Assembly (NCBI GenBank): GCA_958510825.1
Contig: CAUEHQ010000002.1
Location: forward strand, 310,001 to 374,000
DNA length: 64,000 nt
Direction of reading: 5' to 3'
Origin: Brachypterus glaber
Lineage: Eukaryota; Arthropoda; Insecta; Coleoptera; Kateretidae
Shown: positions 1 through 47,676 of the stretch, one piece after another
Layout of the letters: each line of letters begins with the position of its first letter
Numbering within the stretch: the stretch's first letter is position 1
Notes under the pieces: generated by a model
Told to the model about the DNA's origin: nothing
The model's input: the letters and a program-made list of their open reading frames with translations, nothing else
Database searches by the model: none
Program-made: the position numbers and the translations under genes

Positions 1-68
1 GGCAACTCAGTTGTATAGTTGTATACTTCAACTAAGAGTTGCCAACTCTTAAGCTGGGATTGTCTCGA

Positions 69-1523
69 CTAAACTGAGTTCAAGTTAAAAATGCTGTGTT
101 CGGCGAAAATCTGGATTTGGCTCTTGAAAGAAACCGTGTTTACTACCCGTTCAGATGAATCTTCTGACCACAACTGTTTTATCACATCGGCAAATGTCTT
201 AATTAAAGCTCCATGCATACTTGATATATTGGTGTTGATGTCCTGCATATAGCTGTCCTTCTTTAAGTATTCCAACAAAAGTTTCGTGTTCGAAAGGCAT
301 GTAATGACCGAGTTCATGAAACAGGTATTCCCGATATTTTTTAACCCTTTAAGACCCAGAGTTTTGACTGGACTTCCGACCTCTGGCTTATTGTTTGTGA
401 TATAGTTTTTCTCGCTGTTATCATCAATATCACTGTAATTTAAACTGTTGTTGGTGTTGTATAATTTATCGTTCATTTCAGAATCATTATCAAATGTTCC
501 CAAGACACTTATAGCATTACCTCTTTGGATGGCCATACTTATGCGTTGTAGAAAGTAAAGACCTTCCAAAGGGTTGCCGGTGGAATCTACCAAGCGTCTA
601 CAAATGTCTTTAAGAAAGGCCTTAGTGATTGGACCATATGAACCATAAGTTTCAATAGCTATGGGAACAAATTCATAGTCTGTTGATAAAAATTTGTATC
701 TCTTGATCTTAATGTTTTCTGCTCGTTCTGCAGCAGAGCCAGCCTTTTCAGAGTTAATAAGAAGATAAGAGGGAGCCACAGTATCCACACAGGTAAAGTC
801 CCACACCAAGCATTTCCCTCTTTTAAATGGAACCAAAGTCATTCCGTCTGGTCTTTTGCCATCGATTCGTGCCATTAAACCTGGAGGTTCTAAAACAGGT
901 TGTAGATCAATAATAGCTAAGGCTCTCTTTATTAGGTTGTTTACTTCTTTGTGTCTAGATAATCTGCCTTTGCTATATCTACAAGAGAGGCCATGTGTTC
1001 CAGATGTATCAACATTTTCACCACAAATACACAAATGGTGGACAACAGTTTTGGTAGATCCCATTCTCAAATTAATAGCTATTCTAAGTAAGTTTCTATT
1101 TAAAAGTAAACCCAGATTTGATGATGGTAAAGTATTCAACCAGTAGCTTGCTTCCTTTTGACATACTGCGTGCATTCGGGATTTATCCTTTTCAGTACAA
1201 GCGGACTCAATTATTTGTTTTGATGCTATTTCTAAAAGAGGAGTGTCCCAAGCAGATTGGTTTGATGTAGTAGGAATATCAGCGTTGGTTTTTATTTTCC
1301 ATATATTTATTGCGTCATCCACGAGATTTAAATTGAGGTCATTAAATTTTATTAATTGAGAATTTATGAGATTCAGACAAGAATTAAATGAGGAAATATA
1401 GCTTGGTAGAGCTAGGTCACTTGAAAGGCGAAGACCAAGGCCACCAAGTCGACAGGGAAGTGAGGCTTGAGACCACTGAATATCAGAAAAGTTAACATTG
1501 GTAATTTCAGAAAGATTTTTTTT
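69..1523 (-). CDS. Chimeric frame: RLE retroelement C-terminus fused to USP2-like catalytic Cys box, copy 1
   Basis: The frame is open from 1523 (just after an in-frame TAA in the A/T spacer) to a stop at 69-71, 484 codons with no ATG at its head, so it is a 5'-truncated fragment. The first part belongs to a non-LTR retroelement: a conserved post-RT stretch (SLPCRLGGLGLR), then a CCHC knuckle CICG...HGLSC, an R-H pair (SRHKE), and GKRPDG followed 15 residues later by the D of VWDFT. That order is the restriction-like endonuclease of R2-type elements. The family part ends near nt 492 with MAIQRGNAISVLGTF. A polar linker follows (GSPVKTLGLKGL), then GLKNIGNTCFMNS with the USP catalytic Cys codon at 321-323, then homology up to KSQIQ.FA at nt 102. 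The last 10 residues come from flanking DNA. The QQDAQEF and His boxes are absent, so deubiquitinase activity is not expected. The upstream RT core is also missing. Confidence 0.85.
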   Translation of the reverse strand, partial: KKNLSEITNVNFSDIQWSQASLPCRLGGLGLRLSSDLALPSYISSFNSCLNLINSQLIKFNDLNLNLVDDAINIWKIKTNADIPTTSNQSAWDTPLLEIASKQIIESACTEKDKSRMHAVCQKEASYWLNTLPSSNLGLLLNRNLLRIAINLRMGSTKTVVHHLCICGENVDTSGTHGLSCRYSKGRLSRHKEVNNLIKRALAIIDLQPVLEPPGLMARIDGKRPDGMTLVPFKRGKCLVWDFTCVDTVAPSYLLINSEKAGSAAERAENIKIKRYKFLSTDYEFVPIAIETYGSYGPITKAFLKDICRRLVDSTGNPLEGLYFLQRISMAIQRGNAISVLGTFDNDSEMNDKLYNTNNSLNYSDIDDNSEKNYITNNKPEVGSPVKTLGLKGLKNIGNTCFMNSVITCLSNTKLLLEYLKKDSYMQDINTNISSMHGALIKTFADVIKQLWSEDSSERVVNTVSFKSQIQIFAEHSIFNLNSV

Positions 1524-1761
1524 TTAGTTTTTTTTTTGAAAATTTCTTTTTTGAATTTTTTTTAATTTTTTCGTTTTTCGTATTTATTTATTTATTACTT
1601 ATTTATTTTTTAAAAAGAAAATAAAAAAAATATTATATTTAAAATTTTAAACATCCCTAAAAAGAAGTCCACAAGATATCCTTTTTATGTCTTTAGGCGT
1701 CCAGACATAATTAAGATCTAAAAAATATATCTTTAAGATATCATGTGATGTCTGGGTCTTA
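1524..1761. other. A/T-homopolymer spacer of the tandem unit
   Basis: Long T runs (1516-1537 and onward) and A/T-rich DNA separate the chimeric frame from the next unit; a second copy lies at 3285-3522. The end of the spacer holds GTCTGGGTCTTA, followed by a hairpin-prone stretch in which GGCAACTC at 1762 pairs with GAGTTGCC near 1797. No coding signal was seen. The T run abutting the 5' end of the open frame marks where retroelement homology stops. Confidence 0.6.
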
Positions 1762-1829
1762 GGCAACTCAGTTGTATAGTTGTATACTTCAACTAAGAGT
1801 TGCCAACTCTTAAGCTGGGATTGTCTCGA

Positions 1830-3284
1830 CTAAACTGAGTTCAAGTTAAAAATGCTGTGTTCGGCGAAAATCTGGATTTGGCTCTTGAAAGAAACCGTGT
1901 TTACTACCCGTTCAGATGAATCTTCTGACCACAACTGTTTTATCACATCGGCAAATGTCTTAATTAAAGCTCCATGCATACTTGATATATTGGTGTTGAT
2001 GTCCTGCATATAGCTGTCCTTCTTTAAGTATTCCAACAAAAGTTTCGTGTTCGAAAGGCATGTAATGACCGAGTTCATGAAACAGGTATTCCCGATATTT
2101 TTTAACCCTTTAAGACCCAGAGTTTTGACTGGACTTCCGACCTCTGGCTTATTGTTTGTGATATAGTTTTTCTCGCTGTTATCATCAATATCACTGTAAT
2201 TTAAACTGTTGTTGGTGTTGTATAATTTATCGTTCATTTCAGAATCATTATCAAATGTTCCCAAGACACTTATAGCATTACCTCTTTGGATGGCCATACT
2301 TATGCGTTGTAGAAAGTAAAGACCTTCCAAAGGGTTGCCGGTGGAATCTACCAAGCGTCTACAAATGTCTTTAAGAAAGGCCTTAGTGATTGGACCATAT
2401 GAACCATAAGTTTCAATAGCTATGGGAACAAATTCATAGTCTGTTGATAAAAATTTGTATCTCTTGATCTTAATGTTTTCTGCTCGTTCTGCAGCAGAGC
2501 CAGCCTTTTCAGAGTTAATAAGAAGATAAGAGGGAGCCACAGTATCCACACAGGTAAAGTCCCACACCAAGCATTTCCCTCTTTTAAATGGAACCAAAGT
2601 CATTCCGTCTGGTCTTTTGCCATCGATTCGTGCCATTAAACCTGGAGGTTCTAAAACAGGTTGTAGATCAATAATAGCTAAGGCTCTCTTTATTAGGTTG
2701 TTTACTTCTTTGTGTCTAGATAATCTGCCTTTGCTATATCTACAAGAGAGGCCATGTGTTCCAGATGTATCAACATTTTCACCACAAATACACAAATGGT
2801 GGACAACAGTTTTGGTAGATCCCATTCTCAAATTAATAGCTATTCTAAGTAAGTTTCTATTTAAAAGTAAACCCAGATTTGATGATGGTAAAGTATTCAA
2901 CCAGTAGCTTGCTTCCTTTTGACATACTGCGTGCATTCGGGATTTATCCTTTTCAGTACAAGCGGACTCAATTATTTGTTTTGATGCTATTTCTAAAAGA
3001 GGAGTGTCCCAAGCAGATTGGTTTGATGTAGTAGGAATATCAGCGTTGGTTTTTATTTTCCATATATTTATTGCGTCATCCACGAGATTTAAATTGAGGT
3101 CATTAAATTTTATTAATTGAGAATTTATGAGATTCAGACAAGAATTAAATGAGGAAATATAGCTTGGTAGAGCTAGGTCACTTGAAAGGCGAAGACCAAG
3201 GCCACCAAGTCGACAGGGAAGTGAGGCTTGAGACCACTGAATATCAGAAAAGTTAACATTGGTAATTTCAGAAAGATTTTTTTT
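1830..3284 (-). CDS. Chimeric frame: RLE retroelement C-terminus fused to USP2-like catalytic Cys box, copy 2
   Basis: This is the tandem duplicate of the frame at 69-1523, shifted by 1761 bp, with the same 484-codon reading. The shared 417-residue C-terminal portion is identical in the two copies. The CCHC knuckle, R-H, RPD...D motif and USP GNTCFMNS box are intact, with the catalytic Cys codon at 2082-2084. Identical coding in both copies cannot by itself show selection, because the spacers are almost identical too. No promoter, start codon or poly(A) signal can be assigned with confidence. Confidence 0.85.
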   Translation of the reverse strand, partial: KKNLSEITNVNFSDIQWSQASLPCRLGGLGLRLSSDLALPSYISSFNSCLNLINSQLIKFNDLNLNLVDDAINIWKIKTNADIPTTSNQSAWDTPLLEIASKQIIESACTEKDKSRMHAVCQKEASYWLNTLPSSNLGLLLNRNLLRIAINLRMGSTKTVVHHLCICGENVDTSGTHGLSCRYSKGRLSRHKEVNNLIKRALAIIDLQPVLEPPGLMARIDGKRPDGMTLVPFKRGKCLVWDFTCVDTVAPSYLLINSEKAGSAAERAENIKIKRYKFLSTDYEFVPIAIETYGSYGPITKAFLKDICRRLVDSTGNPLEGLYFLQRISMAIQRGNAISVLGTFDNDSEMNDKLYNTNNSLNYSDIDDNSEKNYITNNKPEVGSPVKTLGLKGLKNIGNTCFMNSVITCLSNTKLLLEYLKKDSYMQDINTNISSMHGALIKTFADVIKQLWSEDSSERVVNTVSFKSQIQIFAEHSIFNLNSV

Positions 3285-3648
3285 TTAGTTTTTTTTTTGA
3301 AAATTTCTTTTTTGAATTTTTTTTAATTTTTTCGTTTTTCGTATTTATTTATTTATTACTTATTTATTTTTTAAAAAGAAAATAAAAAAAATATTATATT
3401 TAAAATTTTAAACATCCCTAAAAAGAAGTCCACAAGATATCCTTTTTATGTCTTTAGGCGTCCAGACATAATTAAGATCTAAAAAATATATCTTTAAGAT
3501 ATCATGTGCTGTCTGGGTCTTAGGCAACTCAGTTGTATAGTTGTATACTTCAACTAAGAGTTGCCAACTCTTAAGCTGGGATTGTCTCGACTAAACTGAG
3601 TTCAAGTTAAAAATGCTGTGTTCTGATTGGTTGACTGTCAATTAATTG

Positions 3649-3708
3649 ACGATGTTTTAACTTTAAACATGGTTTAAATTTAAACCAAGTTTAAAGTTAA
3701 AACATCGT
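3649..3708. repeat. 60-bp near-perfect palindrome
   Basis: The left arm ACGATGTTTTAACTTTAAAC and its continuation pair with the right arm ending GTTTAAAGTTAAAACATCGT; I see one mismatched pair over the 30-bp arms and no spacer. It lies 26 bp past the point where the third copy of the 1761-bp repeat stops. It could be a tiny foldback MITE or a break-prone cruciform; nothing in it codes. Confidence 0.85.
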
Positions 3709-4872: not shown

Positions 4873-5924
4873 TTATTTATTATATTTTGTCTCCAAACTG
4901 CTCCCGAACTTCTGATCATGATGACTTTCATCATTCTCAGGAGTTACATAATGTTTCAAATGACTTGAGTGGAATTTTCCTCGCTCTTCCCCCGTAACTG
5001 GATCTTCCAATACATAAGTTGCTTGACTTACGGCCTTTTTAATTTTAAACGGCCCTTCAAACAGTAGCATAATTTTTTTAGTAGTTTTATTTAATTTATT
5101 AGATATGGGATTTGTTCGCAGCAATACTTTGTCATTTATTTTAAAATCTTTGTAAGGGCGACCAGGATTTAGGGCTTTACGGCGAGCTGCCTTACCAAGT
5201 AAAGTTTCTTTAGCTAGAAATAATTTAATGTTATTATCTAGAAGGCGGCGTTGTAAGGAATCATCATGTACTAGGGGTAGGATAGTTTTTGGGGTTTCAC
5301 CCATTTGTAATTCAAATGGCGTGAAACCTGTAGATTCATGCACTATATTATTTAAAAATTCCACGAATTTGGGAACTTCTAGAGCCCATCGCGTATGTTT
5401 TGAGTAAGAATAGGTGCGGAATAGTCGACCTAGTTCGCGCATCCAGCGCTCACTGGTATTCGCCGCAGGATGTCTTACAGACGAATTATGATTCTTATGT
5501 TTAATTTTTTTAGGGCATTATTCCATTTATCACTAGTAAATTGAGACCCATTGTCTGTCAGGATGGCCTGGGGTTGTGAGAACTGTTCAAAATGTTTTTT
5601 AAGACAATTTAGTACCGATTCCGTAGACGCGATTTTTAGGGAGTATAATGATACATATTTCGTAAAAATGTCGACAACTACCGGTAACGGGCCATATAGG
5701 TCCAGGGCTAAAGTTTCATTTGGCCCATTAGGAATAATGCTTTAAAGCGGCGGGTGCGGCATTTGACAGTGCTTTGTGCGCTGACAAATATAGCAACTTT
5801 TGACAACTTTTTTTACATTCGCATGTAAATTTTTTCCCCATATTTCACTCCGTAATGCGCGCCAGGTTTTATAAACCCCAAAATGACCGATATAGGCATG
5901 AAATATCCTAATAATATTTGCCAT
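4873..5924 (-). pseudogene. Integrase of the gypsy element
   Basis: 5924-5742 encodes the HHCC zinc finger (HAYIGHFGVYKTW then SCYICQRTK). The DDE core is found by translating 5740-5445: LDLYGPLPV, then ILTDNGSQFTSDKW, then a frameshift around 5490, then SERWMRELGR. The frame from 5442 to 4873 continues through HESTGFTPFELQMGE to a C-terminal domain rich in basic and hydrophobic residues (LFEGPFKIKKAVSQATYVL) and HSSHLKHYV. A stop and an indel interrupt the core. Confidence 0.9.
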
Positions 5925-6192
5925 CTCACATGCTCGTACACATAAAAAAGGAGTGTTATATTGTCCCCTGTTTAAGTATAATAAATTGTTATGAATTATG
6001 TACCTGCCATTGATTTTGTAATTCTCTACAAACGTACAAAAAATCGGGATCTTCGCGTTGTTTATCAGGTAAGTCCTGCAAGAAAATTTGATTTTTTTTA
6101 CTTAATTCCTTACTTTCGTGAGCTAACATTTTAAATTCTTTTGACATCGGGGAGGCTAATCTAGGGGATGGATTCCTGGATAGTGTCAGGGA

Positions 6193-6483
6193 CTATATTA
6201 GACTTTCCCGAAATAAACTGTATTTGAATATCAAATTCTTGTAGCACAATATCCAGCGTGATATTCTGGCAGACAGTAGGCGACACGATTTAAGGTAAGT
6301 TAAACTTTTACAATCACTTAACAGTATAAAAGGCTTAGATATTAAATAAATGCGCCATTTTTCTATAGCCCACACGGCCGACAGGGCCTCTTTTTCCGGT
6401 ATGCTGTACCTGCGCTCACGCTCTAAGAGTAACCTGCTTGCATATGCAATTATACGTTTTCTACCCTCAGAATATTTCCACAA
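6193..6483 (-). pseudogene. RNase H domain of the gypsy element
   Basis: The frame reads IIAYASRLLLERERRYS, then EKEALSAVWAIEKWR and LLSDCKSLTYL, giving the E and D positions of a gypsy RNase H placed directly after RT. It ends shortly after GRRLSA-type sequence is lost, before the last catalytic Asp. In the family this domain removes the RNA strand of the hybrid during LTR retrotransposition. Confidence 0.85.
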
Positions 6484-7488
6484 TGTAATGCAAAATCGCT
6501 ACTGTCACTTTGAACATAAAAAATTTGACTATGATCAACTCTATATAGGAGTGTTTCTTGACAAATGACGTTTTACAGTCAAAAGAGTTTTGTTGTGCCA
6601 GAGTCCACTGCCACTTAGTCTTGTTTCTTAATAGTGAAACTAGTGGTTCAGACAAATTGGAAAAATTTGGACAAAACGCCCTGTCATTACATAGCCCTAG
6701 AAATGATTGTAATTGTTTTTTGTCTTTAGGGACAGGAAATTCGTTAATTGCTTGAACTCTACTAGGATCACTTTTAAGGCCCTCGTGGGTTAAACAATAA
6801 CCTAGAAACATGGTCTCTTTCTTAAAAAGGGAACACTTTCGTAACTTTATGGTAAAACCGGCATGATATTATTTTTCTAATAGTTTTTCGATATGTATAT
6901 ATATATGTTCATTAACATTTTTGGAGTGTACGAGCATATCGTCTATATATGGTTTGACAAAATTTCTCAGCGAACTACCCAAAATTATATCTACCCCTCT
7001 ACATATCCCGGAACTTGCGGTTTTAATGCCAAATGGCAAAACTGTAGTGGTAACAACGGCCATTTATTACGAAAGCTGTATACTTTTTTGAGTTTTGGGA
7101 TAAAGGTATTTGCCAATATGAACATGTTAGGTCTATATTTGAAAATATTTTTGATTGGACTAGGTCCTCATCATGTAATAAATCATCTACTGATCTAACC
7201 TGCTCAGAATTGGGTTCCATTTTACTGTTTAATTTTCGCGCATCAAGTACCAGGCGAATTGACTTCTTTTTTTGCTACCACCATTAATGGAGAAGAAAAA
7301 GGTGAGTCACTTCGCTCAATCATTCCGAGTGCCTTCATAGAGTCCAGCTCCTTTTGAACTGCCTCTCTGTAAGCATATGGAATCGGGTATTGCTTTACCT
7401 GAAAGGGAGTTTCGTCCGTCAGTCTAACCTCATGGACATACTCAGTAGTTTTAACTGCTATTTCTGAGAAAACGTCTTGATACTTCAC
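6467..7488 (-). pseudogene. Reverse transcriptase of the gypsy element
   Basis: Broken over at least four frames. 7488-7243 holds the N-terminal thumb approach, with MIERSDSPFSSPLM. A frameshift near 7250 shifts reading into LVLDARKLN. 7220-7023 holds FSNIDLTCSYWQIPL, the first catalytic-Asp motif. 7063-6869 holds VLPFGIKTA and PYIDDMLVHS, the YxDD box. 6811-6467 holds MFLGYCLTHEGLKSDPSRVQ, the connection region. Motif order and spacing fit Ty3/gypsy RT. Catalytic Asp residues are preserved although the frame is ruined, so inactivation is by indels. Confidence 0.9.
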
Positions 7489-12259: not shown

Positions 12260-13010
12260 TCGTGCGAAAAACGTAACGGCTAAGTGCCTTACCGAACTTA
12301 AAACACTTGTGCGAATTTGGCTTGTGCGGTGTTATGCAGACTTGGGCAGACATAACCCGACAAGAACGTATTTATGCGACTTAGGCCGGCATAGATTTGC
12401 AGGTCTGGGCGGATTTGGGCGGACTTGTGACGCGGGAGCAAAAAGCGGACTTAAAACGAATTAAAGCAGACTTGTGCGGATTTGGCTTGTGCGGTGTTGT
12501 GCAGACTTGGGCCGGTATAACTATTTGCAGGTATATAACGCATTTATGCAGACTTGGACTGGTATAGTTTTGCAGGTCTAGGCGGATTTGTGCGGGCTTG
12601 TGACGCGGGTGCATAGACCGGACTTAAAACGTATCAAAACAGACTTGTGCGGATTTAGTTTTTGCGGTGTTACGCGGACTTGGGCAGACATAACCCGACA
12701 AGAACCTATTTCTGCGGACTTCGGCCGGCATAGATTTGCAGGTCTGGGCGGATTTGGGCGGACTTGTGACACGGGCGCAAACAGCGGACTTAAAACGTAT
12801 TAAAACAGACTTGTGCGGATTTGGCTTGTACGGTGTTGTGACGACTTGGGCCGGTATAACTATTTGCAGGCAAATAACGTATTTATGCAGACTTGGGCCG
12901 CTATAGATTTGCAGGTCTGGGCGGATTTGTGCGGGCTTGGGCAGACATAACCCGATAAGAACGTATTTCTGCGGACTTGGGCCGGCATAGATTTGCAGGT
13001 CTGGGCGAGT
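12260..13010. repeat. GC-richer satellite, array 1
   Basis: The landmark ATAG(A)TTTGCAGGTCT recurs near 12391, 12564, 12730, 12903 and 12987, at spacings of 173, 166, 173 and 84 bp. Two alternating monomer types of about 170 bp make a higher-order unit near 340 bp, and the 84-bp step suggests an ancestral half-unit. Words such as GACTTGTGCGGATTTGGC and ACTTGTGACGCGGGTGCA recur. Long frames on both strands are by-products of the repeat, not genes. Confidence 0.9.
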
Positions 13011-14028
13011 AGTAGAACTACCGGGGGATAAACCCACTTTGGTAACCTGAGGAATTATTCAGCTGAAGACATCAGCAAGTCCTGAAAAAAATCCTGAAAA
13101 AAAAAATTACAATTTTTTTTTTTTTTTTTCAGGATTTTTTTTTGTTCTTCCGTTGACGACAATGACCAGAGGGTGTCGCCACCTAGCGGTGTAAGTGAGG
13201 CCAAGGATCAGGACTGCCTATCCAGACAAATCGGTTAAAATAAACAACTTGTTATTCAAATAATATTACCAAAGAACCTTGTTATCTGAAAAGGTCAAGA
13301 TCGTATGCATATATTACAAATTATAATTTATAATTAGGGAGCTGTAGAAAATAATTTTTTAAAAAAGTCTCAGCTGTTGCGGGTTTGAACCGCAGACCTA
13401 TAGTTTGGTAGACGGATACGTTACATACTGCGCCACAGAGCTCTCTGCGATACAAAATAATTTAATTGAAAGCTTGGTATTATAAAATTATTTAATATAA
13501 ACGAAGGAGCCCTGAAAAGTTTAAAATTATTGAAAGCAATGAGTGTCAAACCTAATCAGACTAGCTTGTTAGCCTAAATTATGAGACCAAATTAGTAATA
13601 AATATTAAACATTGACTTTTGTAAACCAAACAAATACAGATACAAATATTCTTTAGAAGTACAAAGAGCCAATACCACGTTTTCGCACAATAATTACCAA
13701 TAGACCAAAATATCAAAGAAAGATTCCGTATTGTTTCCGTAATATCTATAAATTATAAATATATAGTTAATATATGGCGTCTTCACCAAATTCTGTTGAA
13801 ATAGTAATTAAATAAAAATAATTTTAATTTGTTTCATAATTTAATAATTATTACATATTAAAAATTATTCTCAAACACATTTTGCAAAAAAGTTCTCAAA
13901 AAAGTTTAGTATACACAGAAAAAATATTTTCTTAAATCAAGAATATTGTGATTCGTATATAACAATATTGTTGTATATTTGTATATACCACGGTACAATC
14001 AAAATATTATTATTATTATTATTATTAG
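13011..14028. other. Insert between the two satellite arrays
   Basis: AT-rich and unrelated to the satellite. Contains a T-run hairpin at 13084-13145 (AATCCTGAAAAAAAAAATT pairing with TTTTTCAGGATT), a tRNA-like sequence at 13371-13443, and a short (TTA)n run at 14005-14027 that abuts array 2. It interrupts what was probably one array. Confidence 0.6.
13371..13443 (-). tRNA. tRNA-like sequence, probably pseudogene or SINE head
   Basis: On the minus strand TGGCGCAGTATG fits an A box and GGTTCAAACCC a B box, with a perfect 5-bp T stem (TGCGG/CCGCA) closing a TTCAAAC loop. The acceptor arm (AGCTCTG against CAGCTGA) does not pair properly and the anticodon arm is poor, so a working tRNA is unlikely. 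Internal Pol III promoter boxes are intact. Confidence 0.5.
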
Positions 14029-15110
14029 GGCGGATTTGTGAGGACTTGTGACGCGGGTGCAAAGACCGGGCTTGAAACGTATCAAAACAGACTTGTGCGG
14101 AATAGCTTGTGCGGTGTTGTGCCGACTTGGGCCGGTATAACTATTTGCAGGTAAATAACGTATTTATGCAGACTTGGGCTGGTATAGATTTGCAGGTCTA
14201 GGCGGATTTGTGCGGGCTTGTGACGCGGGTGCATAGACCGGACTTAAAACGTATCAAAACAGACTTGTGCGGATTTAGCTTTTGCGGTGTTATGCGGACT
14301 TGGGCAGACATAACCCGACAAGAACATATTTCTGCGGACTTCGGCCGGCATAGATTTGCAGGTCTGGGCGGATTTGAGCGGACTTGTGACGCGGGCGCAA
14401 ACAGCGGACTTAAAACGTATTAAAACAGACCTGTGCGGATTTGGCTTGTGCGGTGTTGTGCCGACTTGGGCCCGTATAACTATTTGCAGGCAAATAACGT
14501 ATTTATGGGCCGGTATAGATTTGCAGGTCTTGGCGGATTTGTGTGGGCTTGGGCAGACTTAACCGGACAAGAACGTATTTCTGCGGACTTGGGCCGGCAT
14601 AGATTTGCAGGTCTGGGCGGATTTGTGCGGACTTGTGACGCGGGTGCAAAGACCGGACTTGAAACATATCAAAACAGACTTGTTCGGATTTGGCTTGTGC
14701 GGTGTTGTGCCGACTTGGGCCGGTATAACTATTTGCAGGTAAATAAGGTATTTATGCAGACTTGGGCTGGTATAGATTTGCAGGTCTAGGCGGATTTGTG
14801 CGGGCTTGTGACGCGGGTGCATAGACCGGACTTAAAACGTATCAAAACAGACTTGTGCGGATTTAGCTTTTGCGGTCTTATGCGGACTTGGGCAGACATA
14901 ACCTGACAAGAACGTATTTCTGCGGACTTGGGCCGGAATAGATTTGCAGGTCTGGGCGGATTTGGGCAGACTTGTGACGCGGGTGCAAAGACCGGACTTA
15001 AAACATATTAAAACACCCTTGTGCGGGTTTGGTGACTTATATGCGTTTTAAGTCCGCGCAAATCCGGTTTGGCCGCAAATATTCATACCCGCACAGACCC
15101 GTCATTTTCA
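14029..15110. repeat. GC-richer satellite, array 2, with terminal sequence
   Basis: Same monomers as array 1, landmarks near 14183, 14350, 14515, 14599, 14772 and 14938 (spacings 167, 165, 84, 173, 166). The array decays after 15010 and ends with 15040-15102, which carries CCGGTTTGGCCGCAAATATT and then TACCCGCACAGACCCGTCAT, the same end as the hairpin at 10385-10489. This suggests the satellite expanded inside a transposable element. Confidence 0.9.
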
Positions 15111-24339: not shown

Positions 24340-24455
24340 TATCGGATCTCCGTAATATACGGAGTCAAAATATATTATACGGAGTCAAAATATTATATAC
24401 GGAGTCAAAATAATATATACGGAGTCAAAATATAATATACGGAGTCAAAATAGAA
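24340..24455. repeat. Cluster of CGGAGTCAAAATA words
   Basis: Five head-to-tail copies of a roughly 20-bp repeat, TATACGGAGTCAAAATA with AT spacers, start just after a CTCCGTAATATACGGAG palindrome. Equivalent clusters occur once per 700-bp repeat and at 28970-29065. The regular spacing made me consider a CRISPR-like array, but spacers are just AT variations. Confidence 0.85.
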
Positions 24456-25030: not shown

Positions 25031-27120
25031 AGCCGACGGCGGACCGACGTTGAGCTGATTTAGTATTTCAATTATCATTTGCCATCATTTTGCCGACCGA
25101 CGATCAGACGTCATTCCAACGTCAAAAATCGATGATCATTTGCCGCCCATCGGCCGCCGAATTATTTTTTATTGGGTAGGTTTATTATAATAAAAAAATC
25201 CCCCAATGCCCCCGGGGGCACGCTTAAATTATTCTGACGCTTCCAAATAATAATAAAAACTTAAAACATAACGTGGCCCCGGGCACTTTATTAGTTATTT
25301 TACTTCCAAATGTAAAATGTAGCATAGAATATGAAATCAATTTATGTTCAAGGAAAAATAAAAATTATAACCATCAAATATAATTTGTCTCCGAAGTGCC
25401 CCCTGGTTGTGTGTTCTGTTATCTCGTTTTCTAGTATAATAGAAATGTAAAATTTAACACGAATATGGAGTATTTAATGGTTTACGTAACACATAAGTTT
25501 ATATAAAGTTATGTAAAGTTAGCGCCAATATTATTTTCGGGTCTCCGTAATATACGGAGTCAAAATATATTATATGGAGTCAAAATATTATATACGGAGC
25601 CAAAATATATTATTATACGGAGTCAAAATATTATATACGGAGTCAAAATATATTATACGGAGTCAAAATAGAAATAAAAAATATCTAAGGTTAATATAAT
25701 AACTTAAAAAGTATGGCGTTATAATCATTAAGCCGACGGCGGACCGACGTTGAGCTGATTTAGTATTTCAATTATCATTTGCCATCATTTTGCCGACCGA
25801 CGATCAGACGTCATTCCAACGTCAAAAATCGATGATCATTTGCCGCCCATCGGCCGCCGAATTATTTTTTATTGGGTAGGTTTATTATAATAAAAAAATC
25901 CCCCAATGCCCCCGGGGGCACGCTTAAATTATTCTGACGCTTCCAAATAATAATAAAAACTTAAAACATAACGTGGCCCCGGGCACTTTATTAGTTATTT
26001 TACTTCCAAATGTAAAATGTAGCATAGAATATGAAATCAATTTATGTTCAAGGAAAAATAAAAATTATAACCATCAAATATAATTTGTCTCCGAAGTGCC
26101 CCCTGGTTGTGTGTTCTGTTATCTCGTTTTCTAGTATAATAGAAATGTAAAATTTAACACGAATATGGAGTATTTAATGGTTTACGTAACACATAAGTTT
26201 ATATAAAGTTATGTAAAGTTAGCGCCAATATTATTTTCGGGTCTCCGTAATATACGGAGTCAAAATATATTATATGGAGTCAAAATATTATATACGGAGC
26301 CAAAATATATTATTATACGGAGTCAAAATATTATATACGGAGTCAAAATATATTATACGGAGTCAAAATAGAAATAAAAAATATCTAAGGTTAATATAAT
26401 AACTTAAAAAGTATGGCGTTATAATCATTAAGCCGACGGCGGACCGACGTTGAGCTGATTTAGTATTTCAATTATCATTTGCCATCATTTTGCCGACCGA
26501 CGATCAGACGTCATTCCAACGTCAAAAATCGATGATCATTTGCCGCCCATCGGCCGCCGAATTATTTTTTATTGGGTAGGTTTATTATAATAAAAAAATC
26601 CCCCAATGCCCCCGGGGGCACGCTTAAATTATTCTGACGCTTCCAAATAATAATAAAAACTTAAAACATAACGTGGCCCCGGGCACTTTATTAGTTATTT
26701 TACTTCCAAATGTAAAATGTAGCATAGAATATGAAATCAATTTATGTTCAAGGAAAAATAAAAATTATAACCATCAAATATAATTTGTCTCCGAAGTGCC
26801 CCCTGGTTGTGTGTTCTGTTATCTCGTTTTCTAGTATAATAGAAATGTAAAATTTAACACGAATATGGAGTATTTAATGGTTTACGTAACACATAAGTTT
26901 ATATAAAGTTATGTAAAGTTAGCGCCAATATTATTTTCGGGTCTCCGTAATATACGGAGTCAAAATATATTATATGGAGTCAAAATATTATATACGGAGC
27001 CAAAATATATTATTATACGGAGTCAAAATATTATATACGGAGTCAAAATATATTATACGGAGTCAAAATAGAAATAAAAAATATCTAAGGTTAATATAAT
27101 AACTTAAAAAGTATGGCGTT
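25031..27120. repeat. Three tandem copies of a 700-bp repeat inside unit 1
   Basis: AGCCGACGGCGGACCGACGT occurs at 25031, 25731 and 26431, exactly 700 bp apart, and the copies look identical in every part I compared. Each copy has a GC-rich head (GCCGCCCATCGGCCGCCGAA), a CCCCCGGGGGCA palindrome, and a cluster of five to six CGGAGTCAAAAT words. The corresponding place in unit 2 (about 29646-30360) has one copy. Confidence 0.95.
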
Positions 27121-39963: not shown

Positions 39964-41130
39964 TTGTATGAAAATTTTATAAATTGCACGATGTCTTCGC
40001 AAAATAGTGTATTTTCATGTTGTAAAAGTAAGTTTTTAAATTATGTGTGTATAAACTGTCAAGGTGTCTACCACAAAAGCTGCATTGCAAAATTAAAAAA
40101 TAAGGTTCGTTTTGTTAAACAAAATAAATTAATATGTTGTGAGATTGATGCTTATGAGGAATCGCACAATCAAACTAGTATCCTAGAAAAAACCATATGT
40201 GAATTAAAAGAGGATGGATCACACAAAACAAAACATATTGCTAAGCTAGAAACTCAAAACCAAATTTTGATAAAAGAAGCCTCCATCCTGGAAGATAATT
40301 TACTAGCGCAACTACATACCAAAGAAGAAATTATTCAAAACTTACAAAGTAAACTAGATGTATATATAACGTCGACCAATTCGGTAACAAAAAACGTACG
40401 CACTGATAGTGTTGAAGAGGTAATTTCAAGCGAATCCACCATTAGCTGCGAAAAATGTGACAAATGTGCTACTCTCAAAAGAGATTTAAATAGTTATGCT
40501 CAGGATATTTTTAGAATTTCGGAAATACTGGACGACCTCAAGGCTGATAAATTCTGATAAATTTAACGTTGAATCCTTTATTAAACCAAATGCTGATTTA
40601 AAAAATGTTTCAGAAGACCTTTGTATAATGACGAAGAATTTAACTGATAAAGACTTTATTTTTCTAATGGGAGGAAAACATGACTTTTTAAAGCATGAAT
40701 ACCCCAACATTGAAAATCTTAAAAATCAAATTGAAATTTGTAATAATGTTAATTTGATAATATCTTCAGTGCCATATTCTAAAGATAAAACAATTAACAA
40801 TTTCATATATAAATATAATAAAGCATTGCTGCAGTTAGTTCTTAAACTTGATCGAATTTTGGACCAAAATATATATTTCTATGAAGTCAACAAACATGAA
40901 TACAAAATAAATAAACAAATAAACAACTTACTAAAGATATTCTAAAAATTGTAAATAGTCATCGGGAGCCATTTGAACTTGTAAATTTATGCAACATTGT
41001 GAATTGTGAAGCCTTATCTGATTCTACTAATAACTCTGACTCCAAGTGTGGACCTTTAGTTATAAAGAGTAATATTTTGGGTATATCTACTAGTAATGTA
41101 AGTGATACAGTTTTAGATAATATAAATTTT
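39964..41130 (+). pseudogene. ORF1 of the CR1-like LINE: PHD-like finger, coiled coil, SGNH esterase-like domain
   Basis: From 39964, a Cys/His-rich start FSCCKSKFLNYVCINCQGVYHKSC fits the PHD-like finger of CR1 ORF1 (written here only as motif positions 18-41). A Glu/Lys/Leu coiled coil follows, then a CEKCDKCATL pair of CxxC motifs. At 40540-40560 a 10-bp duplication (GATAAATTCT) shifts the frame. The next frame (to about 40905) contains FIFLMGGKHDFLK and NVNLIISSVPYSK, the GxND-like and strand motifs of SGNH esterases seen in CR1/L2 ORF1; H replaces the usual N in G.ND. A second shift near 40905 restores the first frame, which stays open to 41209, past the ORF2 start. Confidence 0.7.
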
Positions 41131-41132
41131 TT

Positions 41133-44028
41133 ATGGACAACTGCTCTCAATCACATTCCAAAAATAAAGACAGTTTCACTACAAATTTTAAATTTTCAAT
41201 TTTTCATATAAATATCCAAAGTATTATTAGTAATTCTAATCTTTTAGATTTTTTCTTGCAAAAAAACGATGTAGATTTTTTATGTTTAACTGAACATTCT
41301 GTCGGCGAAAAAAATGTAGCTGATTTATGTGTACCTGGTTATAAAATTATATCTAGTTTTGCGAGAAAGTCGCACATACGCGGAGGTTCCTTAATTCTTT
41401 TAAATGATATTCTAAATTTAAATGTAACTGAAATTTTGTATGTTAAGGAGCTTTCTATAGAGTGCCATGTCGAGATATGTGCTGTTTACTGTACCTCTCC
41501 TGCTAAATTTATTTTAATAAACGCGTATAGAGCTCCAGATGGCACTGTTAGTTTATTTTTTGGTCAACTAACATTGGCTTTAAATTATGCATTAAATAAG
41601 ACTCAATCTATTATCTTGTGTGGCGATTTCAACATTGACTTTATTGATTCTTGTTTGGATACGAAACTATTGATGGATTTGTTTAGTTCGTATGGGTTTT
41701 CTTTGCCCCTAGGAGAATATACTCGTGTCTTTACCAATAAAAAGGGAAAGACGAGTAGGTCGTGTATTGACTATATGGTTTTCAACATGCCGTTACAGAA
41801 CCTAGATATTAAGTTGTTAAAACCGAATCTAGCCGACCACTTTGGTCATTTGTTAAAGGCTAATTTTACAAATACCAAAAAAGTCTTAAATAAATGTGAA
41901 TACTATAATAAGAGAATGGTATCCTATACAAATTTAGAGAATTTTAAAGAGGCCATAAACAATATAAGTTGGTCAAACATTTATAAGTTAAGTGTTAATA
42001 ATGGCTTTAAATTTATTATTAATAATTTATCTTTTTATTTTAATATGTATTGTCCCATTAAAAAAATTAAAATAAACAATCAAAAAAAATCTTGGGTCAC
42101 GAAGTCCATAGTTAAGGAAAGTGTAGAATTAAAAAATCTTTCTTGGTTGGTGAATATGTTTGAATGTGGTAAACTTAAGGAAGAGTATAACGATAGGAAG
42201 GCGGTCCACAAAAAAAATATTAAAGATTGTAAAAAAATGTATCTAGAAAAAAAAATATTGAATAGCAATAATAAAACTAAGGAAACTTGGAAAATTATAA
42301 ATACATATCTGGGGCGTAAGGCAAAAAGGGAAACTATACGTTTGAAACTTGACTCAGGTGAGCATTTAACTGATGACTCAGACATTGCAAATAAATTTGC
42401 TGAATACTTTTCCTCCATAGTCATGTCTCGGATGGATAGTCACTTTGGCCAAAATTTATCATTGCCAAGTACTTCTGGCACATATAACTTAACATCGAAG
42501 TTTAACTGTAGTCCTGTCACTGAAAAAGAAGCTTTTAATGCATTTAAAAATATTAAAAGTAAAATTTCTTGTGGAATAGATGGCCTCTCTGTTTCTTCCT
42601 TGTCCCATATATTTAAAAAAATTGTATCCCCATTTGTTTATTTGGTAAATAAATCTTTACGCCAGGGAGTGTTTCCAAAAATATTTAAAGAAGCCCTAGT
42701 AATCCCTCTTTATAAAAAAGGATCTAAAGAAGACGTTGAAAACTATAGACAAATTTCATTACTTTCTTCACTTTCTAAAGTTTTTGAAAAAATTATCTTT
42801 GATAGATTAATGGCACACTTAGAGTTAAACAACATTTTGGCTAATTCACAGCATGGTTTTCGGAAAGGTAGATCGGTAGAGACAGCTTCATATCAGTTTC
42901 TAAATTTTGCATTTTCTAAAATAGACATGGGATTTTATGTTGTGGCTTTACTTTTTGATTTGTCAAAAGCGTTCGACACTGTTTCTCCTGATTTTTTGGT
43001 AGAAAAGATGCGCAAAATGGGGTTTCCTGAATATATTCTGAAATGGATTAAGTCATATATGGAATTGAGATCTATCATATTTAGTATCGGTGATTCAAGG
43101 TCCGAACCACATGGAGTTAATGTTGGAGTACCCCAAGGTTCTATTTTGGGTCCATTGCTATTTCTCATTTTTATTAATGATTTAGGTTTTTTTATCACTA
43201 AAGGTTTACTTACAATTTTTGCGGACGACACCACCATCACAATATTCTCTAAATCCCTTGAAGATTTAACATTACTGATAATTCTCACTATTAATGAACT
43301 AAGTGCGTGGGGTCAACGAAACAAATTAATTTTAAATGCTCAAAAAACAGTTGCTATTAATCTTTTTAACAGAAAACCTGCACCCTTAAACTTTAAAACT
43401 CTTGATAATTTATCATTTGCTGATAAAACTAAGTTTTTAGGCACAATAGTCGACCAAAATTTAAACTGGGAGGGTCATATTGACCATGTTTGCAATAAAT
43501 TAAACAGTGCATATTTCGGAATTTTACAACTTAAAATTATCTGCGCTACTTAATACATATTTTGCCTTAGCCTATCCCACTTGTCATTCAACATTTTATG
43601 TTGGGGTTCTTCCTCTCATTTTGAGCGAGTTTTTATTTTACAAAAAAGACTCATACGTCTAATTTTTAATCTAGGGTATAGAGATAGCTGAAGGGATATA
43701 TTTAAAAGTAACAAGTTACTTACTGCTCCCTCCGTTTACATTTTAAAATGTCTATGTTACACCAAACAAAATCTGAACCAATTTACTTTTATTGCCGACG
43801 AACATAATTATAATACAAGACATGGATTATTAAAAATACCTGCTCATAAAAGAGCTAAATTTCAGAAGTCGCCCATGTACAATTGTATTAGTTTATACAA
43901 TGCACTTCCGCCATTCTTACGCAAAATTGATAATTTTAACCTGTTCAGGGTAAGAATAAAAAATATTTTAACTGACAAATGTATTTATAGTTTGGAAGAG
44001 TACTATTCATGTAATTTTATTTTGTAAT
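41133..44028 (+). CDS. ORF2 of the CR1-like LINE: APE endonuclease and reverse transcriptase
   Basis: An 806-codon frame (41133-43553). The endonuclease starts FSIFHINIQSIISN, then FLCLTEHSV, LCGDFNIDF, and SCIDYMVF with DHFGHL. The RT has SKISCGIDGLS, YKKGSKEDVENYRQIS, LLFDLSKAFDTVS, GVPQGSILGPLLFLIFIND, and FADDTT with the catalytic DD. One frameshift at about 43540-43553 and a stop near 43690 break the C-terminal tail, which continues in another frame (ILCWGSSSHFERVF, YNTRHGLLKIPAHKRAKF) to TAA at 44026-44028. Such proteins nick the target and prime cDNA from it. Endonuclease and RT motifs look intact, but the tail defects make full activity doubtful. Confidence 0.9.
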
Positions 44029-44124
44029 AATTCTGTTCATTTGTAGATATTTATTTATATGTTTTTTGTTTATATTCTTAATCATTTTAAATTATTTTAA
44101 TTGTTTTTTTTGTCCTAACTTATT

Positions 44125-44394
<270 letters not shown>

Positions 44395-44555: not shown

Positions 44556-44601
<46 letters not shown>

Positions 44602-44829
44602 TAAAACATTCTGCATTTACGCATTTTACCTTATTTTGAAAATTTGACAGAATTTTTTTTTTACTGTACAAAAAAAGTGGAGGTCCAAATTTAAAAAAAA
44701 TCTTTAAATCACATCCTTTTTTATAAGTGACAATAATTTGATTAAAAAATACTCATAAAAGCAAATTCTACAGTAATTTTAAAAGAATCCTCAAAAGTAG
44801 AAATTCCCTTAAACAAATTAACTTTAAAA

Positions 44830-47150
44830 GAGAACCTCCACTACATAAAAGAGTAGAATCTAAAGTTTCCGACGGCGATATTCTTGGAGCAATTACTATA
44901 TTGTCATCCAGTGAATCTTTAGCTCCTCATGATGATGACACATTAAGCCAATTAAAGCTTAAACATCCGAAGCCTTCAAGAACTTAAAATTTTCCACAAG
45001 CTACTCCCAGTAGAGAACCAATATCCTTAAATGAAACCGACGTTAGAGCAGGCATTGAACATTTTTCTAATGGATCCGCTGGTGGAATTGATGGTTTGCG
45101 TCCACAGCACTTGAAAGACCCAACGCCCCCAAGCCTTGGAGAAATTGGAGCAAAGCTTTTGTCATCTATTACACGACTTTTAAATTTAATTTTATGTGCT
45201 AATATTAATTCAGATAAAACAAGTATTTTTTATGGTGTTTCCCTTTGTGCTTTACGAAAAAAGGACGGGGGTATCCCCCCAATTGCTGTGGGTACAACTT
45301 TTAGAAGATTGGCAGCTAAATTAGCTTGTAATTTAGTTCCATTGGAAATTACCTTAAGCCTGTAAGTAGGTTTTGGAACAAAAGGAAGTTGTGAAGCTGT
45401 TGTACATGCAGTTTGAAGTTTTGTTCATGAAAATCAATTGACTAATAAGATTTTACTTAAAATTGATTTTAAAAATGCTTTTAATTCCGTAGAACGAGAT
45501 GTAATGCTGAAAGAAGTTTCACAAAATAACCCGAATCTTTTACCTTTTTTATCTGAATGCTATTGTGAACACCTTTATATATATATATAGGTGATCCTGC
45601 TGGACCCATGCTTTTTTGCATGGCAATTCAACCCATAATTACTAAACTAACTTCCGAACTGAATGCTTGGAATTTGGACAATGGTACTTTAGGAGGATCT
45701 CCTGATTCTGTTCTTTCTGATTTTAAGAAATTAGTAGAAAGCTGCCACCACTATAGACTAGAAATAAATCCTCAGAAATGTGAAATATTTTTTTGCTCAT
45801 CCTTTGACAAGGATACTTTACAATGTCGAAAATGTTTCTCCAGGTATTAAATTAGCGACTGACAATCTTATGCTATTAGGATCACCTTTAATTCCAGAAG
45901 CTACCGAATATGTTATGAGCAAAAAACTAACCGAGTTGAAACTTTTGTTTGATCGACTGGAGTCACTAAATGCGCATACTGCTTTTTACCTACTTCGACA
46001 TTGTTTGGCTATACCAAAGCTAACTTACATTTTACGGACCACCACTAAATATTTTTCCAAATATTATTCATATTTTTGACAAGGAAATTTTTACAACCTT
46101 ACAAAAAATTATTAACATCAATATGGATCAAAATCAAATTCAAGTAGCTTCTTTACCGATAAAAGATGAAGGAATTGGTATCAGAAAAGTAAAAGACATT
46201 TATCTACCAGCATTTCTTTCATTTGTAAACACTGTTTCTGGCTTGGCCTTCTCTTTCATGTCTCCAAATAAAGTTGACGGCTTGGCATGGATTTGTGGTT
46301 ATAGTGAATGTTTAAATGCTTGATTTAATATCAATCCTGATCAAACCCCTGCTGAAAAATGTTTACAAAAAAATTGGGATATCATAAACATTACTAGAAT
46401 ATGTGATGGTTTAGGTTTTAATTCAGATGTTGATAAGGCAAGATTTTTCTGATGCCTGGTTAAATGCACTACCTGTTAAAAATCTGGGAACTTTATTAAA
46501 CGTTTTTTCGTATAGCGATTGGACTACGTCTTGGTGTTAATTTATGTGAATCACATATATGCATTTGTGGTGAAAAAGTTGACAGAAAAGGTACTCATGG
46601 TTTATCATGTGTAAAAAGTGCTGGTCGTCATTCTCGGCATAAAGAAATTAATAATATAATTAAAAACGCTTTATCTTCCGTGAACATTCCTTCAATTTTG
46701 GAGCAGGTTGGACTTTGTAGAGGAAAGGGTAAAAGAGTAGACGGTATGACGCCAACTCCTTGGTCTCATGGAGCACATCTTATTTGGGATGCTACTTGTT
46801 CAGATACACTGGCATCTTCCTACATTTCATTTTCTTCAAAGCAACCCAAAATCGTAGCTAAGAATGCGGCTTCCAAGAAAAAGAAATTATACCAGGAATT
46901 AGTGGATCAAGGTTATTGTTTTGTTCCTTTCGCTGTAGAAACTCTTGGGCCCTGGTGCGATAAAGGTAAAGAATTTATAAATTGCCTGGGAAAGAAATTA
47001 ATTTTGTCCACTTAAGTGGCACGCAAGTACTTGCGTGCCCCGCTCTAAGCAATTTAAAAAAATAAATATATTTTGGCAATACAGAATGGAAATGCTGCAT
47101 GTGTTATGGGAACTTTGCCTCCATCGATCGATTTTGAGGAGTTATTATAG
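44830..47150 (+). pseudogene. RT and restriction-like endonuclease of the RLE element
   Basis: Broken into about eight frames. The order is SDGDILGAITILSSSESLAP, then SNGSAGGIDGLRPQHLKD, KKDGGIPPIAVGTTFRRLAAK, LLKIDFKNAFNSVERD, GDPAGPMLFCMAI, and LDNGTLGGSPD, where this family's usual LDDG has become LDNG. The endonuclease part has CICGEKVDRKGTHGLSC, SRHKE, then GKRVDG where the other copies have RPD, and LIWDATCSDT. After a frameshift at about 47015 the tail reads LAIQNGNAACVMGTLPPS to FEELL and a stop at 47148-47150. Loss of one catalytic Asp in RT and of the P in RPD fits inactivation. Confidence 0.8.
47018..47039. repeat. 22-bp perfect palindrome near the end of the RLE coding region
   Basis: GGCACGCAAGT followed directly by ACTTGCGTGCC. 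It lies where the frame is shifted, so it may be an insertion that broke the last part of the protein; the tail coding resumes after it. Confidence 0.9.
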
Positions 47151-47676
47151 TTTTATTTTTTATTTATTAGTTTATTGTTTATTTATATGTATTTTATTAT
47201 TAATGTATTCTATACAGATTTGATTTTAAAAAAGGTGTTTTTTTTTTCTAAAACACCCTGTATATCAAAACTGTGGGTCATAGCCCAAACCTGAAAAAAT
47301 ATTCAGAATCAGGAGAAAAAATGCTTTAAGATAGGTTGTCAGAAAAAAAAGTATGCTTCTCGGTATGCTTCAAAAATATCATTTTGTGGGATAGTGTTTG
47401 CTCCGAGAAATATGCTTATTTTCCAACGTCATTTTTCAGCGTTGGGTGGGAGAATATATTTTTTAATGGAGAATATATTGTCCTTTAAAATTTTCGGAGT
47501 AACGGTTTATGAGAAAAATACAGAAAAGCATCATGAGGTTACGTTTGGGGGTGTTTTTTTAGCAAAAGGGGATGAAGCTCCAACTCTTCGGATCTGTATT
47601 TGGGTTCCTACTGGGAGTTCACAAACAAAATTTTAAAACTATAAATTTTCTTGTATTCGACGTTTTTTTCCTCTAA

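Follow-up and report, generated by a model that had tools for sequence, protein, structure and literature searches.

An R2-like retroelement copy with an in-frame USP tail probably taken from host USP2, and recurrent USP tails in arthropod relatives

Introduction

What is a reading frame that starts as the endonuclease of a retroelement and ends as a deubiquitinase? Such a frame lies at the start of the window, the 64-kb stretch of DNA analysed here, where the original prediction described a single open frame joining a CCHC knuckle and an RPD..D restriction-like endonuclease (RLE) to a USP2-like protease. The presence of Ulp1 and OTU proteases in mobile elements has been read as a hint that ubiquitin-type modification plays a part in transposition (PMC2836005, excerpted text). 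Among open-access titles and abstract openings, we found no report of a peptidase C19 in a retrotransposon. The only statement found that links C19 to a mobile element (PMC2836005, excerpted text) concerns a Trichomonas transposase_11 protein, which belongs to a DNA transposon and not to a retroelement.

Results

The fusion frame and its tandem array

The predicted frame was confirmed (Table 1); its 484 stop-free codons compare with a longest run of at most 193 codons in 60 simulated windows of equal dinucleotide make-up. It is repeated in a tandem array whose two units differ at 1 base in 1761, outside the frame. Identity extends to the left edge of the window, which starts within the array, and the array may continue beyond that edge. 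In the third copy, the 101-bp segment meets unique DNA at the same base where the other units meet USP sequence. Except for short A/T-rich matches, no further DNA copies of the 1761-bp unit were found within the 64-kb window. A search of the window against Rfam at gathering thresholds found 0 matches, so the array is explained by no known RNA family, and of 29 pattern matches in viral contigs, 0 were confirmed by tblastn. Since the two near-identical units lie at the very beginning of the window and run up to its edge, the array might be collapsed or chimeric at a contig edge, which would make the joint an assembly artefact. We find this hardly credible, as the RLE-USP joint lies inside the unit, distant from the unit junction, and other genomes show the same architecture.

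Table 1. Features of the fusion locus and of a second RT-RLE copy in the window (nt positions)
Feature	Position	Strand	Basis or remark
Tandem array, two 1761-bp units	1..3522	.	repeat comparison
RLE-USP fusion frame, copy 1	69..1523	-	484 codons, stop-free
Foreign tail EHSIFNLNSV, derived from the adjacent unit past the tandem junction	72..101	-	USP2 homology ends nt 102
USP2-derived segment: short upstream linker and first ~85 aa of the catalytic domain	102..437	-	P0169 residues 401-512
USP Cys box GNTCFMN, including the catalytic cysteine	312..332	-	alignment
Joint, RLE C-terminus to USP2-derived sequence	438..458	-	homology ends
R2-like retroelement protein, 3' part: thumb/linker, CCHC knuckle, restriction-like endonuclease	459..1514	-	
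Endonuclease core	789..854	-	RPDG and WDFTC
CCHC zinc knuckle CICG..HGLSC, aa 165-181	981..1031	-	motif and alignment
RLE-USP fusion frame, second tandem unit	1830..3284	-	letter-for-letter repeat of copy 1
Third, partial unit: 101-bp segment alone	3523..3623	.	abuts unique DNA
Second, decayed, frameshifted RT-RLE copy of the same superfamily	44745..47162	+	tblastn and by eye

In the retroelement part a CCHC knuckle precedes a restriction-like endonuclease (RPD..D), as in R2-like RLE elements. The zinc-knuckle columns are almost invariant across 76 sequences, and the endonuclease core contains RPDG (aa 224-227, nt 843-854) and WDFTC (aa 241-245, nt 789-803), which we take to be the catalytic RLE motifs. 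Structure comparison (VIA-align, covering the folds ranked by Foldseek) gave this part an R2 fold (R2Bm, R2Tg) at 12–16% identity. Its 5' end is a truncation inside the RT region, 3' of the [FY]xDD core that the relatives P0122, P0130 and P0121 possess (RVT_1 with YLDD), and its 3' end is the natural C-terminus. In the RLE tree the window sequence had a long branch (1.44), odd composition and no supported position; a grouping with P0003, P0004, P0016 and P0011 in a quick tree was not confirmed by the careful tree.

RLE homology stops at nt 459, and USP2 homology begins at nt 437 (Phaedon host protein P0169) or nt 425 (P0155). The joint is thus at most about 7 codons from the natural RLE end, with strand and frame shared. 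The predicted structure of the window protein is disordered from residue 356 on. The tail belongs to peptidase C19 by its Cys box and its UCH profile match (E 8.6e-13). Among the matches listed, it is closest to beetle USP2s (Leptinotarsa 84%, P0155 82%, Callosobruchus 81%, over 89–91 aa), and in the USP tree it falls within a set supported at 100/97 that includes 19 host genes, of which 16 are from named beetles, so the host of the element is probably a beetle. Since the last USP base is nt 102 and the tandem junction lies at 101/102, the stop before the QQDAQEF box is a tandem-duplication breakpoint, and an early stop by design was rejected. The QQDAQEF box, zinc cysteines and His box are missing from the window copy, which ends at this junction. 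With no RT core and a partial USP, this copy is a fossil that cannot be active.

Two Leptinotarsa USP2 models, P0251 and P0175, differ by a replaced stretch (EYLKK..ALIK), which suggests that introns flank this stretch on both sides. The window segment runs uninterrupted over both places, and so, judged from this one species, the captured segment looks like spliced mRNA.

Several other repeats and elements share the window. Adjoining the array is a near-perfect palindrome (3649-3708, two 30-bp arms, 97%), possibly a foldback element or MITE, and beside the array are minus-strand frames that by eye resemble an LTR-retrotransposon integrase and RT/RNase H (4873-6101 and 6467-6868). Degenerate tandem arrays with periods of mostly ~166-415 bp, and a GC content above most of the window, occupy 12298-15030. 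A ~120-bp block of 20-bp repeats recurs at an exact 700-bp spacing in 25550-27070 (25551, 26251, 26951), a higher-order repeat with related blocks at 24353, 28968 and 30195. An 810-codon plus-strand frame (41121-43553) is apparently a nearly intact LINE of another type: by eye its N-terminus looks APE-like and RT motifs can be made out, and it gave a weak RT match. The second RT-RLE copy reaches residue 1007 of 1007 of P0277 by tblastn, its natural C-terminus, and no USP2 match was found there at E 0.01. Long (TTA)n/(TAT)n microsatellites (44120-44394 and 44556-44599) lie just upstream of this USP-free copy; microsatellites are targets of some RLE elements (PMC4640811, excerpted text).

Related proteins with RT-RLE and USP

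Relatives were collected with three protein searches, taking the best 120 matches of each (287 proteins); as the queries carried USP, this sampling is biased to fusions. With the window included (n=288 best matches), both RLE/RT and USP were found in 16 sequences, USP only in 122 and RLE/RT only in 150. Of the fusions, one is the window sequence, two are Phaedon gene models (P0028, P0241) and 13 are barnacle-type proteins, among them P0121 and P0135 of Amphibalanus amphitrite. A check proposed with the original prediction, the search for full-length elements with a complete USP, turned up near-complete USPs in P0121, P0122, P0049 and P0125. P0122 (1454 aa) contains RVT_1 (65 bits), RLE and UCH (219 bits); P0130 (1328 aa) has the same three domains, with UCH cut at the protein end; and P0121 (1157 aa) has RVT_1, RLE and a complete UCH, its N-terminus being absent. 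A PHD-like finger lies at the N-terminus of P0122 and P0130, below the Pfam cut-off (18.3 vs 24 in P0122). Within the set of 154 proteins with the RLE C-terminal motif, which the queries enriched for USP, tails longer than 45 aa occurred in 15 USP fusions and 2 others (P0057, P0102), and the median tail without USP was 20 aa after the RGN motif.

The tails occur in several genomic contexts. The near-identical USPs of Amphibalanus P0121, P0129 and P0135 lie on separate contigs (242 kb, 99 kb and 1.6 Mb, respectively), and P0121 is 87% identical to the host protein P0126. Phaedon P0028 and P0249 are on different sequences. P0129 is an LCAT-domain protein with a USP tail near-identical to that of P0121, perhaps because an element insertion lacking its 5' end was annotated as host exons. 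In the Phaedon models P0028 and P0241 the Cys box is absent and the USP starts near a host exon boundary; these models may have arisen by gene prediction across a USP2 duplicate and an RLE close by.

Such cases bear on whether the whole pattern is chance juxtaposition, with a processed USP2 pseudogene in frame beside a dead RLE in the window and prediction or assembly joins elsewhere. The broken, tandemly repeated window copy, the Phaedon models, the tail read into the LCAT model and P0135, which resembles two USP pieces in one model, would all fit. We nevertheless consider this explanation unlikely, given a joint so close to the natural RLE end on the same strand and in the same frame, the presence of RT, RLE and complete UCH within single proteins of 1454 and 1157 aa (at the level of protein sequence), and the occurrence of 12 barnacle-type fusions in two RLE subclades with their active-site residues kept.

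Captures and probable exchange of USP types

The original prediction of capture of a host USP2 by an RLE retroelement was supported: the tails nest with USP2 of the same animal group, and the related proteins with near-complete USPs named above back it further. The nine barnacle-type USP2 tails and the Amphibalanus host gene fall together (100/100), the beetle tails lie inside beetle hosts (100/97), and the sister of the Phaedon tails is host Phaedon USP2 (98/97). A single capture for all 12 USP2 tails was rejected as a clade (AU p 1.3e-5), as was a clade of the nine barnacle-type tails excluding the host gene (p 0.0011). Once P0125 and P0130 are set aside, the remaining seven barnacle-type tails form one side of a host-free branch (support 46/68), and by these sequences one capture for those seven is not rejected. 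A clade of the three beetle tails met a borderline rejection (AU p 0.048), two of them having long branches that meet.

On the RLE side, a 99/95 set contains the 12 barnacle-type fusions tested together with four USP-free proteins, and with P0222 alone the fusions form a 90/75 set; they fall in two RLE subclades. P0028 and P0241 sit in separate sets of USP-free proteins (100/98 and 99/98, respectively). These two therefore represent separate RLE lineages, yet their USP tails are sisters (99/89), which may be a false join of two long branches.

The USP tails are of more than one type. P0127 is USP8-like (345 bits to USP8 vs 210 to USP2), P0132 is nearest to USP15/USP8 (198 bits), and P0122 is of the USP2 type (369 vs 252 bits); the other 9 of the 12 fusions were typed by identity and tree. 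Similar RLEs can bear dissimilar USPs (P0121/P0127: RLE 83%, USP 35%; P0049/P0124: RLE 89%, USP 34%), and P0121/P0122 show the opposite pattern (RLE 59%, USP 73%). On the RLE tree the USP type switches four times, a count not below that obtained when labels are shuffled, and RLE clades of the two USP8-like fusions (p 7e-11) and of the two third-type fusions (p 0.0037) were rejected. As the USP types replace one another, the role of the tail would seem to be generic deubiquitination and not one tied to a USP2-specific partner.

The reverse direction, offered as an alternative in the original prediction, would have a duplicated host USP gene gain RLE exons and become a domesticated host protein, and some Amphibalanus and Phaedon fusions are indeed annotated as ubiquitin carboxyl-terminal hydrolase 2 or ubiquitinyl hydrolase. 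It fits poorly with multi-copy tails in different contexts and with the separate intact host USP2 genes (P0126, P0169). The RLE homology of P0122 and P0130 also runs through RT to the element N-terminus, and closely similar RLEs bear three USP types, which together make this direction very doubtful.

Catalytic residues and constraint

At the 11 columns checked in the 16 fusions, each fusion that covers them retains the catalytic Cys, His and Asn/Asp and the four zinc cysteines, and all active-site classes are kept in the near-complete tails (P0049, P0121, P0122, P0124, P0125, P0127, P0131, P0132). The QQDAQEF box is present in the near-complete barnacle-type fusions; in P0124, of the third type, His replaces the second Gln of QQD. 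In the Phaedon protein P0249, which has a USP and no RLE, the His column is occupied by Met. The window covers the Cys box only, and the Asn aligned at a later column belongs to the foreign tail.

Constraint was assessed by comparing differences from the host at columns invariant in 46 hosts with those at variable columns. Among the barnacle-type fusions this covered 8 of the 9 USP2 tails (all but P0135). Relative to the Amphibalanus host, these eight differ at 4–13 invariant columns (of 62–148) and 23–69 variable columns (of 80–196), so that host-invariant columns are spared (P 1.2e-13 to 0.037). The weakest constraint (P 0.037) is that of P0121, the same-species and cleanest case; for the other seven, part of the host-like difference pattern may predate capture and stem from the host gene itself. 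The Phaedon proteins gave 30/127 invariant vs 74/170 variable differences for P0028 (P 2.6e-4), 20/119 vs 65/160 for P0241 (P 1.2e-5) and 22/89 vs 51/130 for P0249 (P 0.018). For the window tail cut at the junction the figures were 3/36 vs 13/53 (P 0.044; 0.011 and 0.098 against two other hosts), and with the foreign tail included the constraint was not significant (P 0.22). End branches measured 0.12–0.89 in 10 of the 12 USP2 tails vs a median of 0.052 over all 58 rows; the remaining two, P0121 and P0135, have a common stem of 0.13.

The original prediction also allowed that the USP part might be limited to binding, or be without function. This stands for the broken window copy alone and fails for relatives that are long enough, which keep the QQDAQEF and His boxes. 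Retention of the tail as a ubiquitin- or chromatin-binding targeting module instead of a protease would accord with the ubiquitin-binding of USP folds, with the existence of non-catalytic USPs and with a window tail that retains only the Cys-box half. We judge it quite improbable, considering that near-complete barnacle-type tails retain the Cys, His, Asn/Asp and zinc cysteines and that swapping of USP types preserves catalysis and not one binding surface.

Discussion

We conclude that the window likely holds a dead, 5'-truncated, tandemly duplicated copy of an R2-like element whose C-terminal USP tail came from host USP2, probably through spliced mRNA, and that such tails (USP2, USP8-like and a third type) recur in arthropods. 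Sequence comparison establishes, at its own level, that beetles and barnacles have R2-like element proteins to which a USP tail of host origin is fused in frame, and that such tails were acquired more than once. A plausible route is that during target-primed reverse transcription (TPRT) the RT jumped to, or recombined with, a host USP mRNA, creating an in-frame RT-RLE-USP protein. In relatives, the aligned tail keeps the catalytic Cys, His and Asn/Asp and the zinc cysteines, and from these residues we infer that it may work as a deubiquitinase in cis. It would then deubiquitinate the element's own protein/RNA particle and prevent its degradation or, alternatively, strip ubiquitin from histones and repair factors at the nick.

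The donors appear to be host USP2 and USP8: the window tail is up to 84% identical to beetle USP2 among the matches listed, and eight barnacle-type tails are 75–87% identical to Amphibalanus USP2. Unlike these host proteins, the tails are fused to RT-RLE, occur in several copies and evolve faster. The matched R2 structures (R2Bm, R2Tg) have no USP, whereas the window element has one at its C-terminus, and the N-terminal PHD-like finger, albeit weak, further sets P0122 and P0130 apart from R2. R2 proper inserts site-specifically into 28S rDNA; the window contains no 3' junction of the element. Dualen/RandI elements likewise bear an RLE, and they carry an OTU protease. Dualen, however, has both APE and RLE (PMC4640811, excerpted text), and Pfam detected no APE or OTU domain in P0122, P0130 or P0121, which separates them from Dualen/RandI. 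NeSL elements and Utopia-1_TSP resemble the fusions as RLE elements with a captured ubiquitin/SUMO-type cysteine protease, but theirs is Ulp1-like and N-terminal (both PMC4640811, excerpted text) and the one described here is C19 and C-terminal, after the RLE. Pfam found no Ulp1 in P0122, P0130 or P0121 (the last without its N-terminus), unlike NeSL. Among DNA transposons, Ginger1 has an OTU/Ulp1 protease that is likewise C-terminal (PMC2836005, excerpted text), and Helentrons, also not retroelements, have an OTU protease (PMC4067079, excerpted text). Protease capture by mobile elements is thus already known; what appears new here is C19 in an RLE retrotransposon, and its recurrence and swapping are the surprising part.

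A broader reading, which we offer tentatively and at somewhat less than an even chance, is that deubiquitinases are an exchangeable C-terminal module of one animal RLE superfamily, with host USP2, a USP8-like protein and a third USP captured independently in beetles and barnacles and swapped. Ubiquitination of the TPRT complex would then be a common host restriction, relieved by any active deubiquitinase in cis. R2 proteins are under development as gene-insertion tools (PMC11331408, excerpted text), and knowing whether ubiquitination limits them would have practical value for such tools. Because the donor genes are recent and identifiable, capture is recurrent and the types are swapped, a direct test is possible of whether a cis deubiquitinase raises retrotransposition, and of what it protects. 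The whole USP of the barnacle relatives, and its seemingly several separate acquisitions, suggest that ubiquitin removal benefits these elements.
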